Of a stretch of DNA of 24,089 bases, positions 2,928 to 16,828 are shown piece by piece. The translations under genes were made by a program, and so were the position numbers. Origin of the DNA: a virus. Position 1 is the stretch's first letter. The number at the start of each line of letters is the position of its first letter. The stretch covers positions 1 through 24,089 of the IMG/VR virus record IMGVR_UViG_3300022693_003915. The stretch is one strand, 5' to 3'. The notes below the pieces were generated by a model that ran no database searches, was not told where the DNA came from, and saw nothing but the letters and a program-made list of their open reading frames with translations.

Positions 2928-3086
2928 ATGCCACAACATCCAGGAAAAGTACTTACAAAACCAACTCTTAAAAATTCGAAAACAAAAGCAAAAAAAATCA
3001 CAAGAGATAAAACCGCCAAAGGAAAGACGGGGGCTAAAAAAGCAATGACGACGGGGCACCTCTCCGGGAAAGCTAAGAAGAAATAA
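2928..3086 (+). CDS. Small Lys-rich basic protein (copy B)
   Basis: 52 residues, 16 of them Lys, beginning MPQHPGKVLTKPTLK and ending SGKAKKK. ATG 2928 is preceded by AAGG at 2919-2922. Its last 14 bases overlap convergently with the minus-strand gene ending at 3073. Composition (Lys, Ala, Thr, Gly) resembles histone-H1-like or protamine-like tails. It shares start context and size class with the ORF at 2712, as if one arose by duplication. No family assignment is possible by eye. Confidence 0.45.
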   Translation: MPQHPGKVLTKPTLKNSKTKAKKITRDKTAKGKTGAKKAMTTGHLSGKAKKK

Positions 3087-3315
3087 GCTTCTTGTAAATA
3101 ACTTTAAGATTCTCAGAGAGTTTCTTGTTTTCAAAATACATCTTAACAGAAGCATCAAAATAGGGCCGTACAATGTCTTTTTCAGACCAGTTAGCTATAG
3201 TTCTAAGAGGAACCCCGAACACTTTAAACATTGTTTCAAACTCAGGTGATGACCTGTAAAAATTAATTACACCAAACTCATCACGGCAGAAAGTTTTAAG
3301 TTGTTTCTTTGTCAT
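3073..3315 (-). CDS. Hypothetical protein, HTH-like
   Basis: 80 residues beginning MTKKQLKTFCRDEFG. The middle segment (VFGVPLRTIANWSEKDIVRP) has the look of a small helix-turn-helix in which a short loop precedes a recognition-like helix, so a DNA-binding role is possible. It starts five bases downstream of the RNA ligase stop and is probably co-transcribed with it. No strong SD is visible. Unrecognised otherwise. Confidence 0.55.
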   Translation of the reverse strand: MTKKQLKTFCRDEFGVINFYRSSPEFETMFKVFGVPLRTIANWSEKDIVRPYFDASVKMYFENKKLSENLKVIYKKLISS

Positions 3316-3320
3316 AAGTC

Positions 3321-4415
3321 TTAGGTCTTTAATTTATTAACAAGTTTTAATGCAGAGTCTAGTTTTTTGGAAGGCTGGATAATTTGAGCATCAAGAAAAG
3401 ATTGAAACCATGGCCTTACTTTGTTAGCCACTGATGATCCAATGTCTTTTGGAGTCAAATTGTTTTTCATGAGGGTATCTAATTCTTCTTTGATGATATC
3501 ATTAAAAACCCATCTGATGAAATCGCCCATTTTTTTAATTTCAGGTTCAATACCATTAGATGTAAATACTTGCTCTATACCTTGATTCAGCCTATTTTCA
3601 ACAACAGAGTAATCAATAAACTCTCTAATGCTTTGGATTTTTTCAATGTCGATTTCCGCAAGTTTTTTAACTTTTGATGTTGAATGTTTTTGGCCTTTGA
3701 CTTTGAAATAGTGAAATGAATCTTTATAAAATCCACGCCAAACTACACCTTCGCCTATTCCAGGTGATCCAAGTTCTTGTCCAACAGGGCATGATTTTTC
3801 AACGGATTCAGTGAATTCAGCTAGTTTATTTTGAGATTCTTGTGGGTAATTAAAATCAATATCGATATCAAAAGTTTTGAAATTTTCAATGTTATAAATG
3901 CCTACAGGTAAAGGATGAGTTAACGTAACTATTTCATGATCCAACGGATCTCCTTCGTTATTTTCATGGGTCACTTTCAATCCGAAAATAACAAACATTT
4001 TTGGAAGTTTAGATATAGCTACCCCTTTTTGTATTCCTTCCCCACACCATTCTCCATATATGGTTAGGATCTCACCATTTCCTATTGTATAGTATTCAGA
4101 TAAAGCTTCAAAGGTCTTTATAAAAAAGTCTTTTTTCTCTTTAACAAAAAGAGCAAACCCGACATTGTCCTTCTGGATTGTGCAGATACCCGTCCTTTTT
4201 TGCGCCTGTATTCCATTGGTTTCACTGTAAGAGACACCTGCATTGGTTCCATGTAATTTCACCGTCCCATGAAATCTGACAGTTGGCATGGTGACGTTTT
4301 TATCATAAATTACAGTTCCGTCTTCCTCTGTTTTTATATATTGAGCAGAATGAATTACATTTCTAACTACATTTCTGAATTGATCTATACTATGATATTT
4401 AATGAATTTTTTCAT
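3321..4415 (-). CDS. RNA ligase, nucleotidyltransferase family
   Basis: 364 residues. The adenylation motif KLHGTN lies at 53-58, so Lys53 is the predicted nucleophile that takes AMP from ATP. Downstream are EWCGEG (122-127, motif III-like), EGVVWRG (222-228, motif IV) and YFKVKG (236-241, motif V), in the order seen in RNA ligases of the Rnl2/PF09414 type. The C-terminal ~110 residues are helical and may bind RNA. Such ligases in phages seal RNA breaks, for example tRNAs cut by host defence nucleases, in the cytoplasm. A good SD (AAGGGGG) precedes ATG 4415. No polynucleotide kinase gene is visible here, so the end-healing partner, if any, lies elsewhere. Confidence 0.85.
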   Translation of the reverse strand: MKKFIKYHSIDQFRNVVRNVIHSAQYIKTEEDGTVIYDKNVTMPTVRFHGTVKLHGTNAGVSYSETNGIQAQKRTGICTIQKDNVGFALFVKEKKDFFIKTFEALSEYYTIGNGEILTIYGEWCGEGIQKGVAISKLPKMFVIFGLKVTHENNEGDPLDHEIVTLTHPLPVGIYNIENFKTFDIDIDFNYPQESQNKLAEFTESVEKSCPVGQELGSPGIGEGVVWRGFYKDSFHYFKVKGQKHSTSKVKKLAEIDIEKIQSIREFIDYSVVENRLNQGIEQVFTSNGIEPEIKKMGDFIRWVFNDIIKEELDTLMKNNLTPKDIGSSVANKVRPWFQSFLDAQIIQPSKKLDSALKLVNKLKT

Positions 4416-12657: not shown

Positions 12658-12861
12658 ATGGTATCAATCAATTATAATACAGAAATTAAAGTGCATAGAC
12701 CTCTTTTTAAGGTTGTTTTGAACAAAATTTTAAGATTGTTTCAATTTTGGACTAAAAACAAATATATCATCATATCATATTTTGATACTACATATCAAAA
12801 CGGAAAAGTGATTAAAGACGTTTTAACCGGGTATGGGTTTGCGAAAGTGAAGCATGCCTAA
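12658..12861 (+). CDS. Small basic hypothetical protein
   Basis: 67 residues, basic (many Lys) with a hydrophobic-aromatic patch (RLFQFWTKNKYIIISYF). Its stop (12859-12861) overlaps the MuF start (ATG 12854) by eight bases, implying translational coupling to MuF. Only a distant GGA lies upstream of its ATG. No family recognised; it may be a small head-assembly accessory or a leader. Confidence 0.45.
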   Translation: MVSINYNTEIKVHRPLFKVVLNKILRLFQFWTKNKYIIISYFDTTYQNGKVIKDVLTGYGFAKVKHA

Positions 12862-14941
12862 AATTTCTGAACTTCATCAAAGTAAAATCAGAAAAATTGT
12901 TTCACGTAGAACAAAGACAAGACATTTTGTTGATTTAAAATTCCCCAATACGATAGTAAGGGATTATGGCAAAGAAATTATCAAAGAAGTAAACCTAATT
13001 GATAATCTCATCAAAGAAATTCTCTTTCCTCACCTGGAAAAAATAACTAATACAAAAGATGAAAGATTGGATCGTGATATTGATTTCAAGAAATTAGCTG
13101 GTGTTGCTTTGGTTGCTTTTTTGATAAGAAAAATTAAATCAAGGTTTTTTGGTGAACGTCTTGAAGAAGACCAAGAACCAAGCCAAAGATTATTCACAGA
13201 ATCAATCAGAAGAATTTCAAGCAAATTTCTAAATCAAGCAAACTCATTTGGAGAAAAAAAGTTTGTAAATGAGTTCGAGAGGCAAACCGGAACCAAGCCT
13301 CTTGATAGACATTTGGATGTTGAGGAATTCATTAAGGATGCTACCCGGAAAAACATCTCTCTGATTAAAACGATTCCTCAAAGATACTTTTCCCAGGTTC
13401 AAACACTCATTGAAGAAGCCGTAAATCGTGGACAACTCACAGTTGCATTACAAAGAGAACTTCTTCAGATCAAAGAAACCACAAAGAACAGTGCGAGGTT
13501 GATTTCCAGAGATCAAATAGGGAAACTCGTAGCTGTCACAAATGAGGCCAGACAGAGGAATCTTTCGGTTACTCATTATATTTGGCGAACTTCAGAAGAT
13601 GGGAGAGTTCGAAGTTTTTCTAATTCGAAGGGATTTAGTGATCATGCGCGACTTAACGGTACATTAATTTCTTGGAGCCGACCCCCACAGACCGTTTTTA
13701 AGGGAAAAAGAAGTGGAGAACACAATCATGCCGGGATGGATATTCAATGTTTCCCAAAAGGAACAATGATAAAAACAGAGAAAGGGGAAAAACCTATTGA
13801 AAAAATAAAAATAGGCAATATCGTCCATTCTCATTGGGGGCTACAAAAAGTTATTGAAACTCACGTTAATCATTACAAGGGCAAGTTAATTGGAATTAAA
13901 TTTTTGCATAAGACAATATGGCTCACTCCAGGTCATAAACTCTTTATTAATGGGAAGGGATGGGTCTCCCCCGAATGTCTCAAGATCGGTGATAAAACCG
14001 TAAAACTTGAGAAATTTTTCACGTGTAACTTTTTCCACAAAGAATCGGCTAGGAATATAAAACACCCTCATCCCCATCTTATCAGTCAAGAGCAAATGTC
14101 TATCGGGGTTGATTTTACTCATGGCCCCCTGAACTTCAATTACAGTGTTAAGTTCGTTAAGCATAAAATCGGCTTGATAATCAACGCCATCTTTCCGGTC
14201 AGGTTTTTCAAAAACCCATTGAGGGTCATATTTAACACAAAGAATATCAAGCCAAGCGGCACATATAATTTCAGATTCAGGTATAATTCCGCCTTTCCCA
14301 TATCCACATCGAGGACCAGAGGAGGCGGGGAGACAGTTTTTTCTTCTTTCAGGATTTTTGATCCATTGAGTTGCAACAGCTTCACTCCCGTATCTTATTT
14401 TAATTCCATAATGAATGAGAACCCTTTTTATCATTCTACTTGTCATCCTGGTAACTTTAGTAATATCACGATAGGACCAAAATTTATCAATATATTTTTC
14501 AATCAGCCATTTTTCAAGTGGCGTGCCTACGGTTTTTTCAGCCTTCAAAAGATGATTCATAAAAAATCCTTTGTTCGCACAATCTACAGAACAATAGACA
14601 CCACACTTATTTTTAAATTGGCTCTTAATTGCTTTGAATTCTTTAGAACATGTTTTGCAATTAACTTTATAAGATCTTTTCCCCATAGATTCTGTTCCAA
14701 AATTATTAATAATGTTTTTAAAAGACATCTGCATTATGAAGTTGTTGGACTAGAAAGTCAAGAGTTCGACGGATACGTTTATAATTTTGGAGTAGATAAA
14801 AGTATGAGTTATTTTGCTGAAGGAATTCTTGTAGAAAATTGCCGTTGCGGGGCGCAGGCTGTTTTTGATGATATTACAGGTATTGAACATCCAGATACAA
14901 AAGCGGCCAGGAAGAAGTCAATTTCGCTTGGGTTAATATAA
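12854..14941 (+). CDS. MuF-like head protein interrupted by an intein
   Basis: 695 codons. The extein is residues 1-298 plus 663-695, giving a 331-residue MuF-type protein after splicing. MuF proteins act with the portal at the head vertex and are needed for capsid morphogenesis or DNA ejection. The MuF domain is seen at ~200-298 (HYIWRTSEDGRVRSF, then HARLNGTLISWSRPP) and ends at the conserved CRCG motif (663-666). The intein (residues 299-662) begins with Cys299 and ends at Asn662 before Cys663. Start ATG 12854 overlaps the preceding gene; GTGAAG precedes it. An antisense ORF (13886-14734) lies wholly inside the intein. Family call is secure. Confidence 0.85.
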   Translation: MPKISELHQSKIRKIVSRRTKTRHFVDLKFPNTIVRDYGKEIIKEVNLIDNLIKEILFPHLEKITNTKDERLDRDIDFKKLAGVALVAFLIRKIKSRFFGERLEEDQEPSQRLFTESIRRISSKFLNQANSFGEKKFVNEFERQTGTKPLDRHLDVEEFIKDATRKNISLIKTIPQRYFSQVQTLIEEAVNRGQLTVALQRELLQIKETTKNSARLISRDQIGKLVAVTNEARQRNLSVTHYIWRTSEDGRVRSFSNSKGFSDHARLNGTLISWSRPPQTVFKGKRSGEHNHAGMDIQCFPKGTMIKTEKGEKPIEKIKIGNIVHSHWGLQKVIETHVNHYKGKLIGIKFLHKTIWLTPGHKLFINGKGWVSPECLKIGDKTVKLEKFFTCNFFHKESARNIKHPHPHLISQEQMSIGVDFTHGPLNFNYSVKFVKHKIGLIINAIFPVRFFKNPLRVIFNTKNIKPSGTYNFRFRYNSAFPISTSRTRGGGETVFSSFRIFDPLSCNSFTPVSYFNSIMNENPFYHSTCHPGNFSNITIGPKFINIFFNQPFFKWRAYGFFSLQKMIHKKSFVRTIYRTIDTTLIFKLALNCFEFFRTCFAINFIRSFPHRFCSKIINNVFKRHLHYEVVGLESQEFDGYVYNFGVDKSMSYFAEGILVENCRCGAQAVFDDITGIEHPDTKAARKKSISLGLI
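13886..14734 (-). CDS. Homing-endonuclease-like ORF antisense inside the intein
   Basis: 282 codons on the strand opposite the intein, in exact codon register with it. An N-terminal zinc finger has Cys26, Cys29, Cys48 and Cys52 (CKTCSKEF, then YCSVDC). An HTH-like segment follows at ~86-110 (WSYRDITKVTRMTSRMIKRV). A PD-(D/E)XK-type core is seen as YQADF (D189) then VIEVQG (E200, Q202); Gln in place of Lys occurs in some members such as I-Ssp6803I. Predicted role: a site-specific endonuclease cutting intein-free MuF genes to spread the intein. Start uncertain: ATG 14734, 14728 or 14686; the last has GGAACA upstream and follows the candidate promoter. Its stop TAA is opposite sense Leu codon TTA at 13886-13888. 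Confidence 0.72.
   Translation of the reverse strand: MQMSFKNIINNFGTESMGKRSYKVNCKTCSKEFKAIKSQFKNKCGVYCSVDCANKGFFMNHLLKAEKTVGTPLEKWLIEKYIDKFWSYRDITKVTRMTSRMIKRVLIHYGIKIRYGSEAVATQWIKNPERRKNCLPASSGPRCGYGKGGIIPESEIICAAWLDILCVKYDPQWVFEKPDRKDGVDYQADFMLNELNTVIEVQGAMSKINPDRHLLLTDKMGMRVFYIPSRFFVEKVTREKFLKFYGFITDLETFGGDPSLPINKEFMTWSEPYCLMQKFNSN
14733..14761 (-). promoter_or_regulatory. Candidate antisense promoter for the endonuclease ORF
   Basis: On the minus strand: TTGACT (14761-14756), a 17-base spacer, then CATAAT (14738-14733). Both boxes differ by one base from consensus and the spacing is optimal. Transcription would start near 14726, upstream of ATG 14686 and close to ATG 14728. It lies within coding sequence for intein block F. 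Confidence 0.5.
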
Positions 14942-15151: not shown

Positions 15152-15222
15152 TATTTATTTTGCTTTATGCTCAATAATCATCTACATGGGCAATGATTAT
15201 TGAGCATAGAGCAAAATAAATA
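15152..15222. repeat. Large inverted repeat, 30-base arms
   Basis: Arms 15152-15181 and 15193-15222 are complementary at 29 of 30 positions; the only exception can form a G-U pair. They flank an 11-base loop. This would be a very stable hairpin in RNA. It has no T-tract. It abuts the promoter at 15224. It may be a bidirectional RNA-end-forming structure, a protein site or a relic of an inserted element. Confidence 0.85.
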
Positions 15223-15258: not shown

Positions 15259-15747
15259 ATGGACATTAGAACACTATTCCAGAATAATAAAAAAAGTTGC
15301 ACCGTTAAAAGTCCGTGGGTGATTGAAGAAATTGCTAATGGATTAAAGGCACGGAGTGTAAAATTTAGAAATGGAATTTACGTAAAGAAAAACAAAAAAA
15401 TACCTGTCCAATATTTTGAGAATGATCGCATCTTTGGCCGAGGTGTTTTTGTTGATGATGGTATTTTGAAAGTCATGAAAATGTTTGATGAATTGAAGAA
15501 TATAACCCCCTTAACAATTGGCTACATTTTCGGGGACAACATATATTTAAATTACAATAAGGGGATTTTGAAACGCAGCGATAAAACAGGTGAGGAGAAC
15601 TTTTATTCTGAAGGGACACTTCAGAATGAACACATGGCTCATTATCTAGAATTAAGCTGTATCACAGATCCCACATATGAGAGAAAAGATACAGATCGGG
15701 TTGCCTTACACGGTTATAATCCCGAACTCGAAACGATTACGGATTGA
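15259..15747 (+). CDS. Hypothetical protein upstream of the patatin-like gene
   Basis: 162 residues, basic and soluble, with no membrane segment. It contains SVKFRNGIYVKKNKKIPVQY near residue 34, a PLTIGYIFGDNIYLNYNKG stretch near 84, and AHYLELSCITDPTYERKD near 126. It has no SD; a promoter ends just before its ATG. Its last 71 bases overlap the next ORF, which lies in the +1 frame and itself lacks an SD. The two could be separate coupled genes or parts of a frameshifted product. Function not recognised. Confidence 0.55.
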   Translation: MDIRTLFQNNKKSCTVKSPWVIEEIANGLKARSVKFRNGIYVKKNKKIPVQYFENDRIFGRGVFVDDGILKVMKMFDELKNITPLTIGYIFGDNIYLNYNKGILKRSDKTGEENFYSEGTLQNEHMAHYLELSCITDPTYERKDTDRVALHGYNPELETITD

Positions 15748-16828
15748 AGGCGATTTTTCAGGGACAGAATTATCGACTGAAATCATAAATCAAACTGGAC
15801 TCACTCATCCTAAAATGAGCTTAACGAGTCAAGACAAATCGGCTGAGATCATTTTTCAGTATGACCATAAAGTAGGTGTTTCATATACAATGGTCACAAG
15901 TGAGAAATGTTTGGTCGTTAAATCATACGATAAGCCCCCCATAAAAAAATCAATATCAGGACTACAATATTTTCGAGGAAAAAATGAAGAGGGAAGGGAA
16001 AAGTTTTTTCCTGTTCTGAAATTTTCTAGTTGTATTTCATTTGATCAATCCTACTTCCTCCGAACAATCGGCCAATTAAATATTCAAGAGAAGTTAGGAA
16101 ACCAATTTTCTTTGTTTTCAGGTGCAGGTTTTGGGGTTATTCAAGCATTTGCGGGTGCTTTAGATATGGATATATCTGAAGTTATGAAATGGTTTGTTAA
16201 TGATCTTAGAAATTCAATCCATAAATCAATTCTTAAAAAAACTACACAACTATTTATTAGTTTCATGATTGATTTTGATGGTGAAAGGCTTAATCCGAAA
16301 CCAATCAAAAAAGTAATCCGAAAGTTTTTTTCAAAAAATAATAGAGACTTACTTGTAAGAGATTGCAAGGGGGATGTCTTTATTATCCTTCAAGACATAT
16401 CAGGAAGAACAGCTACAGTTACCAAGGGGATAACACCAAATTTCCCTATTTATGAAGTCATATCAGCCTCAATTTTTGACCCTGTTTTTTTCAAAACAAG
16501 GGCTGATCAAATCAAAGGATTTGGCGTGATGGGTGGTGATGTTGCTAAAAATAATAATTCGTTTATCCGAAAAAACAATCCGTCTTTAAGCATCATCTCA
16601 GTTGGATCACCTGTCAGACTATTCGATAAAGGAAAAGATCTTATAAGCAGATCAGATCTTTCTTTGAAAATATCAGATAGAAAACATGAGACCGATTTGG
16701 TGGTTAAAATTAAAGACCCATACAAACGACATCAATGTAAGCCAATTGATGAGTGTTTTCAATTTGCGACTGACCGGGAGTCAATGGAATTGGCTTTTTT
16801 ATCAGGGGATATAGATGCTCGATTATGA
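15677..16828 (+). CDS. Patatin-like protein with apparently lost active site
   Basis: 383 residues from ATG 15677 (no SD; true start uncertain; the next in-frame ATG is 15815). A patatin-like alpha/beta pattern is visible: FSLFSGAGFGVIQAFAGALD at 144-163 occupies the place of the nucleophile elbow, FDGERLNPKPIKKVIRKFF at 200-218 the lid region, then VFIILQDISG, then VISASIFDPVFF, then GVMGGDVAKNN at 283-293, then NPSLSIISVGSP. In active patatin phospholipases these are GxSxG and DGG. Here Ser is Gly151 and the catalytic Asp is Met285, so hydrolysis is not expected. It may bind lipid or act as a structural or decoy protein. It sits between MuF and the protease beside membrane-protein genes. 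Confidence 0.5.
   Translation: MREKIQIGLPYTVIIPNSKRLRIEGDFSGTELSTEIINQTGLTHPKMSLTSQDKSAEIIFQYDHKVGVSYTMVTSEKCLVVKSYDKPPIKKSISGLQYFRGKNEEGREKFFPVLKFSSCISFDQSYFLRTIGQLNIQEKLGNQFSLFSGAGFGVIQAFAGALDMDISEVMKWFVNDLRNSIHKSILKKTTQLFISFMIDFDGERLNPKPIKKVIRKFFSKNNRDLLVRDCKGDVFIILQDISGRTATVTKGITPNFPIYEVISASIFDPVFFKTRADQIKGFGVMGGDVAKNNNSFIRKNNPSLSIISVGSPVRLFDKGKDLISRSDLSLKISDRKHETDLVVKIKDPYKRHQCKPIDECFQFATDRESMELAFLSGDIDARL

Follow-up and report, generated by a model that had tools for sequence, protein, structure and literature searches.

We analysed a window of 24,089 nucleotides, the whole stretch of viral DNA under study (positions 1 to 24,089 of IMG/VR record IMGVR_UViG_3300022693_003915), which has a GC content of 36%. 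A single continuous plus-strand frame at 12854-14941, confirmed in the window, encodes a 695-residue MuF protein interrupted by an intein that extends from Cys299 to Asn662, with Cys663 as the first extein residue. Pfam places Phage_Mu_F at residues 181-299, Hint_2 at 299-333 and Intein_splicing at 331-662. On the complement of the intein, and in codon-on-codon register with it, lies a second ORF, predicted to encode a homing endonuclease. A preliminary description of the sequence had put the intein at 13748-14839, which held exactly, and had reported a 282-codon complementary ORF in phase with it, which also held (12854-14941 on the plus strand, 13886-14734 on the minus strand). The features of the locus are as follows.

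12854..13747, plus: MuF (minor head protein) N-extein (Pfam Phage_Mu_F, E=2e-7; PHROG 324, head morphogenesis, E=1e-43)
13748..14839, plus: intein, Cys299-Asn662, before the MuF CRC motif (DIQ|CRC); Hint_2 and Intein_splicing matches, predicted Hint fold similar to the gp41-1 intein
13886..14734, minus: antisense gene for the putative homing endonuclease, 282 codons plus stop, codon-on-codon with the intein
13925..13936, plus: block B motif TPGH, its T and H invariant in 50 related inteins; antisense to the C-terminal tail of the nuclease
13970..14287, minus: nuclease domain, predicted Vsr-like/EDxHD PD-(D/E)XK fold (model; Foldseek to I-Bth0305I, 3r3p_B)
14270-14272, 14168-14170 and 14135-14137, minus: predicted catalytic residues E155, D189 and E200, respectively, invariant across the family
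14018..14560, plus: disordered sense linker, the complement of the nuclease gene (AlphaFold pLDDT <50, model residues 96-276)
14357..14521, minus: helix-turn-helix (HTH) and RxxSEA segment (hhalign to the family, residues 71-202, E=8e-4; pLDDT 85-95)
14576..14661, minus: Cys-rich, zinc-ribbon-like N-terminal part (CxxC...CxxxC), from sequence, with weak matches to PHROG 1271 and 559 (HNH endonuclease), E=0.002-0.003
14774..14791, plus: block F (YVYNFG), a sequence motif
14837..14842, plus: block G, the terminal Asn of the intein and the +1 extein Cys; in 66 related MuF precursors N663 is nearly invariant and C664 invariant (A4 numbering)
14840..14941, plus: MuF C-extein (CRCGAQ...) and stop, from the ORF

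The two proteins and their predicted folds

The sense protein carries the full set of features of a Hint splicing domain, namely blocks A, B, F and G with Cys1, the block B Thr and His, the terminal Asn and the +1 Cys, and across relatives Cys1, the two block B residues and the Asn|Cys junction are near-invariant. AlphaFold, run with 50 related sequences, modelled both Hint halves confidently, with the gp41-1 intein as the best PDB match of the predicted fold, and gave residues 96-276 a pLDDT below 50. Based on this disordered middle, we predict that the sense linker is simply the unstructured complement of the nuclease gene. The preliminary description had found no endonuclease motif on the sense strand, and a Pfam scan likewise returned no endonuclease family match in the middle of the window's sense protein; the intein thus has no recognisable sense-frame endonuclease domain. 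Nor is it a split intein, as the window does not contain two separate ORFs for the intein halves.

For the antisense protein, the preliminary description had proposed a zinc finger, an HTH and a PD-(D/E)XK-like core including D189 and E200. The HTH is predicted with high confidence, whereas the Cys4 N-terminus can be recognised in the sequence but is modelled with low confidence. D189 and E200 held and are joined by E155 as a third residue, all three being invariant in 52 family sequences that include the window, although residue-by-residue equivalence to the EDxHD motif of I-Bth0305I is not established. Much of residues 150-250 is modelled at a pLDDT above 90, and Foldseek matched the window model to 3r3p_B with probability 1.00 and a TM (target) of 0.72, but with an E-value of only 0.01, possibly reflecting poor modelling of the rest of the chain. 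The family profile found the catalytic domain of I-Bth0305I (3r3p) as its best solved structure (E=9e-7), followed by a Neisseria endonuclease-like protein, and the HTH and nuclease core of the window protein align with the family (E=8e-4). Pfam scans of family members gave many REase_MTES_1575 matches and some to DUF559 and Vsr, with HTH families dominating. The fold predicted by model and family profile is therefore refined to the Vsr-like/EDxHD branch of PD-(D/E)XK, closest to I-Bth0305I; the absence of any nuclease family match by profile search, which the preliminary description had named as refuting, did not occur.

The window nuclease differs from its relatives in its Cys-rich N-terminus, in a start located upstream of block F in the sense direction and in narrower borders: its stop lies 13 codons past block B on the N-terminal side, against a median of 35 in relatives. 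In all 76 measurable loci the nuclease stop is on the N-terminal side of block B, so that the overlap always includes block B.

Two further observations concern the window around MuF. The gap after the gene holds a near-perfect 30-bp inverted repeat with one mismatch and an 11-nt loop (15152-15222; folding energy -40.4 kcal/mol, z = -10.4). Near the head genes, at 3321-4415 (minus) and 15677-16828 (plus), lie an RNA-ligase-domain protein and a weak patatin-like phospholipase match, the latter just under the Pfam cut-off.

Stop avoidance and selection across the family

Relatives were found through tblastn of the MuF protein against INPHARED, in which matches in several phages extended past the insertion point into an intein. 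In all five inteins that we examined (Aggregatibacter S1249, Edwardsiella MSW-3, two Klebsiella phages and a Helicobacter prophage) the complement held an ORF of roughly 300 codons in the same register, most with HTHs and all with YNxDF...(V/I)E. Searches with these five antisense proteins recovered 110 INPHARED records, 61 of them from Salmonella phages, and many IMG/VR contigs; a scan of the genome_contigs collection gave only three loci. In total, antisense-protein searches yielded about 150 loci, from phages infecting Salmonella, Klebsiella, Gordonia, Vibrio, Pseudomonas, Helicobacter, Aggregatibacter and uncultured hosts; where these carry annotation, it almost always names a head, minor capsid or hypothetical protein encoded on the opposite strand. 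Of the 66 sense ORFs that were scanned, Phage_Mu_F and Intein_splicing each matched 56 (E<0.001). The first intein residue was Cys in 69 of 69 measured inteins and the end was N|C[RK][CS] in 68, figures that describe the measured set only, as an initial Cys, together with this terminal motif or something close to it, was part of the search pattern. By eye, we saw no antisense nuclease motif in a contrast set of terminase, thymidylate synthase and helicase inteins.

For a complementary frame to stay open, the nuclease must avoid TTA, CTA and TCA. As the preliminary description had claimed, the window ORF has no TTA or CTA among 17 Leu codons and no TCA among 17 Ser codons, an absence with a probability of about 1.5e-7 given the usage of the 16 other window genes (143/340 and 112/356, respectively) and of about 1e-5 given that of the MuF exteins. 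The open antisense run in the intein is 287 codons, compared to a maximum of 155, and mostly below 90, for other window genes in codon-on-codon register. Across 109 non-redundant loci (<85% identical to one another, window included), all retrieved by antisense protein homology and not by openness of the frame, the complement of the matched nuclease lacked any stop in 107. Pooled over these 107 loci, TTA or CTA occurred in 0 of 1921 Leu codons and TCA in 0 of 1927 Ser codons, where about 743 forbidden codons were expected from each locus's own exteins; the loci share ancestry, and counts over them are not fully independent. Our results show an in-register antisense nuclease gene within an intein in the window and, as antisense ORFs in MuF inteins, at about 105 other non-redundant loci.

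Two nuclease genes, in L009 (Acinetobacter phage IME285) and L092, are free-standing, being convergent with and directly behind intein-less MuF genes, and their complements contain 12 and 17 stops, respectively. The forbidden codons are thus used freely where the complement need not stay open. These genes (L009 455-1348, L092 2962-3801) could be intermediates or relics of the union of intein and nuclease. A third candidate for a free-standing gene, L104, was rejected, as its three complement stops come from a frameshift that breaks both frames at the same place. With the Gordonia query, the complement is open in L007 and L015.

Every embedded nuclease uses the codon-on-codon register. By reasoning from the genetic code, a complement stop shows up in this register as TTA, CTA or TCA in the nuclease, codons that all have synonyms, and no other antisense register allows all complement stops to be avoided synonymously. 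The other registers rule out certain pairs of adjacent residues; in one of them, for instance, Phe cannot precede a codon starting with A. Codon-on-codon register thus imposes no amino-acid restriction on the nuclease, hence its use in every embedded case.

Selection in close relatives acts on the antisense protein. Overlap-core substitutions counted in four close pairs numbered 62, 10 and 11 at sense positions 1, 2 and 3, compared to 123, 61 and 404 in the exteins (Fisher 1e-24), and the excess at sense position 1 corresponds to the wobble position of the nuclease. The pN/pS in the core of these pairs was 0.11 for the antisense and 1.89 for the sense frame, with exteins at 0.14 in sense; over 21 pairs the same contrast was 0.42 versus 0.79. 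Among 59 diverse nucleases, antisense columns were better conserved than their complements in 215 of 293, and columns without an antisense advantage were concentrated in the stretch opposite intein blocks A and B, where the C-terminal tail of the nuclease is encoded. Sense column scores in the overlap core were near zero. Over most of the overlap, sense amino acids are therefore not conserved and only the absence of stops is kept. The claim of the preliminary description that both proteins are maintained from the same bases held only at the edges of the overlap, at block B, on the block A side and, in most relatives, at block F; elsewhere the sense frame is merely open.

The preliminary description had suggested dN/dS for both frames, which we obtained as pN/pS in relatives and not for the window. 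No close relative of the window emerged from single-protein scans of viral_contigs with its nuclease, MuF and major capsid protein, nor one of its nuclease from INPHARED, so that selection on the window's own nuclease could not be measured. For the window, the case for selection rests on stop avoidance, intact catalytic residues and family membership.

Block F appears as HVYNLE in most relatives, where it doubles as the Shine-Dalgarno sequence and ATG of the nuclease. Of 54 loci with H[VA][YF][ND][LF] in block F, 51 encode the His by CAT (antisense ATG) and 3 by CAC (GTG), compared to 47% CAT in exteins, and 43 encode the Leu by CTC, compared to 20% in exteins; Asn is AAC in 37 of 44. This codon choice yields GAGGTT a few bases before the ATG. 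Binomial probabilities are 1.5e-13 for His and 1e-20 for Leu, without correction for shared ancestry. The window nuclease ATG has no Shine-Dalgarno sequence, and a crude scan finds one in just 5 of 20 other window genes. We did not find a convincing promoter for the antisense gene, as a scan at the nuclease start performed no better than shuffles.

Insertion sites and variant inteins

Intein-free alleles in close relatives reveal exact insertion at N|CRC (AAT|TGC) without duplication. KpTDp1, with the intein, reads ...CCAATAAAT|TGTTTC...AAT|TGCCGCTGT, and the empty allele of BUCT_49532 reads ...CCAATAAAT|TGCCGCTGT; Salmonella PK1 and ER17 show the same pattern. Removal of the in-frame insertion restores the host protein in the relatives with exact empty alleles (L156, L157). 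The junction of the window's own intein, DIQ|CRC, conforms to the MuF motif, but we found no empty homologue of it. Of 74 jedunavirus-type MuF matches, only 8 extend across the intein, and this sporadic presence with exact insertion is typical of homing, an inference from sequence alone.

Several relatives depart from this layout. Escherichia phage KMB36 (L158, 2784-4754), along with PQ561395 and PQ141284, carries a MuF intein at a different site, STTC...NCRARDG, roughly 25 codons upstream of CRC; here too an antisense nuclease from this family is present, and the annotation reads only 'minor head protein with inserted intein'. In Mycobacterium phage Sejanus (L168, 1409-4594) an intein with an antisense nuclease occupies yet another position, with junctions KVWV|C...N|CTIDGKTRPSHW, in a gene annotated as a capsid maturation protease. 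Rhodococcus phage REQ3 (L169, 1364-3142) has a minor capsid intein with an antisense nuclease that apparently begins with Ala instead of Cys (HPN|AVLEGS ... SN|CGH) and is possibly a non-class-1 intein. In Vibrio phage 1.245.O (L165, 1-3277) the terminase gene ends just downstream of intein block B and is followed by an ORF of its own for a hint domain (2960-3277), an arrangement that looks like a split intein or a fractured terminase gene.

Existing annotation has touched both halves of the element separately. An intein was noticed in Salmonella UPWr_S phages (PMC8425127) and by the annotators of Escherichia phages Snoke and KMB36. In two records, hypothetical proteins are placed on or across the antisense ORF: that of Salmonella phage PK1 (L014, 2411-3220) annotates them over the MuF gene on the opposite strand, and LC507823 (vB_StyS-sam) looks like the PK1 annotation. 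Gene callers thus sometimes find the antisense nuclease. We found no annotator who had connected the intein with the antisense ORF, and no earlier report of an antisense nuclease inside an intein in the open-access literature searched.

A probable mobile intein with its nuclease on the opposite strand

The architecture, the stop avoidance, antisense selection in relatives, the catalytic residues and fold, and the exact empty sites are shown. From these we consider it very likely that a mobile intein occupies this phage MuF gene and that its homing endonuclease is encoded separately, by a gene nested within it on the opposite strand, with splicing, nuclease expression, the cut site, cleavage and homing all inferred. 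In the proposed cycle, MuF would be translated as a precursor whose two Hint halves fold together with the long disordered linker between them, and splicing of the intein would restore the CRC motif. Translation of the opposite strand would produce an EDxHD/Vsr-like nuclease that cuts intein-free MuF alleles at the N|CRC codons, and repair would copy intein and nuclease in together. As complement stops can be removed synonymously, any nuclease could in principle be written there with the precursor still open.

The alternative that survives best, although unlikely, is that the nuclease is a passenger or remnant that once supported homing and is now inactive or unexpressed, the intein persisting by splicing only. 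Decay is predicted by the homing cycle, and in L140 and L141 the nuclease has an internal stop (codon 177 of the match) with the sense precursor still open, a decayed nuclease in a retained intein that is an expected outcome of that cycle; the window ATG also lacks a Shine-Dalgarno sequence. Against this, relatives show strong purifying selection on the antisense frame, the window's catalytic residues are intact and start signals are conserved at most loci. It is very unlikely that the antisense protein is instead a DNA-binding regulator or defence factor: HTH families dominate its Pfam matches, but the nuclease active site is invariant, the closest solved structure is a homing endonuclease, and sporadic presence with exact insertion fits homing. 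Equally improbable is a fully dual-coding pair, with strong amino-acid selection on both proteins over the whole overlap. Sense blocks A/B and F/G do overlap the nuclease C-terminal tail and start, but in the core the pooled sense pN/pS of close pairs exceeds 1, sense columns score close to zero and the sense protein is modelled as disordered. Chance or codon bias, in which an ordinary large intein has an open complement by accident, is all but excluded, for although GC-rich genes have long codon-on-codon antisense runs anyway (as in Sejanus and Kewpiedoll outside the intein), the window is AT-rich with no comparable run in another gene, the relatives came from protein homology, the antisense proteins and not the sense middle are conserved, with invariant catalytic residues, and the close-pair substitution pattern refutes it.

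The mobile intein with an opposite-strand nuclease that we favour resembles several known systems without matching any. Large mobile inteins of the PI-SceI type likewise have a nuclease between blocks B and F of a Hint domain, precise insertion in a conserved motif and empty alleles, but their nuclease is part of the sense-frame polypeptide, whereas in MuF the opposite strand encodes it and the sense strand contributes no more than a linker. The EDxHD/Vsr-like homing endonuclease I-Bth0305I (reviewed in PMC3943268) shares the catalytic-domain fold and sequence profile and is also a phage nuclease with appended DNA-binding modules, but it belongs to a group I intron. 'Fractured genes', in which split inteins occur together with a separate nuclease gene, are reported to exist (Dassa et al. 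2009), and the gp41-1 intein, the closest predicted fold, is one that we take to be a member of this group. There too a nuclease gene separates the Hint halves, but the MuF precursor is one continuous ORF with the nuclease antisense within it. In phage ShiLan, an out-of-frame HNH insertion in a methylase gene (PMC11855218) places a homing-type nuclease in another frame of the insertion and leaves the host gene open, but on the same strand, without a splicing domain and with an HNH nuclease. I-DsqI, an antisense homing gene in a group I intron that was shown to be active (PMC9548176), is also antisense to its host gene; its intron is removed at the RNA level, and the complement therefore need not stay open. 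To our knowledge, no described intein carries its nuclease other than in the sense frame or as a separate gene.

On balance we favour, with some reserve, a bolder reading in which these elements form a distinct, widespread and so far unrecognised class of mobile intein in tailed phages, with splicing element and nuclease on opposite strands in a register unrestrictive for the nuclease, and block F serving both as the ribosome-binding site and as the start of the nuclease, which would thereby be expressed independently of the late head-gene transcript. As the window nuclease has a different N-terminus and borders, the antisense arrangement may possibly have arisen more than once.

The layout offers a design rule for entangling two genes, and the MuF intein gives a large, naturally occurring example of two-strand coding that can be tested and follows a simple rule, the avoidance of TTA, CTA and TCA. 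The sense motif FHGD...E.EV, conserved in relatives' precursors, is the reverse reading of the active site YN.D...VAVE, and alignments or profile libraries that include FHGD...EV therefore partly model the other strand. The layout also accounts for the carriage of a non-LAGLIDADG nuclease by an intein: because the complement is just a linker, the nuclease need not fit the intein fold. An intein common in phage head genes, and present in dozens of sequenced Salmonella phages, thus has its nuclease on the opposite strand.
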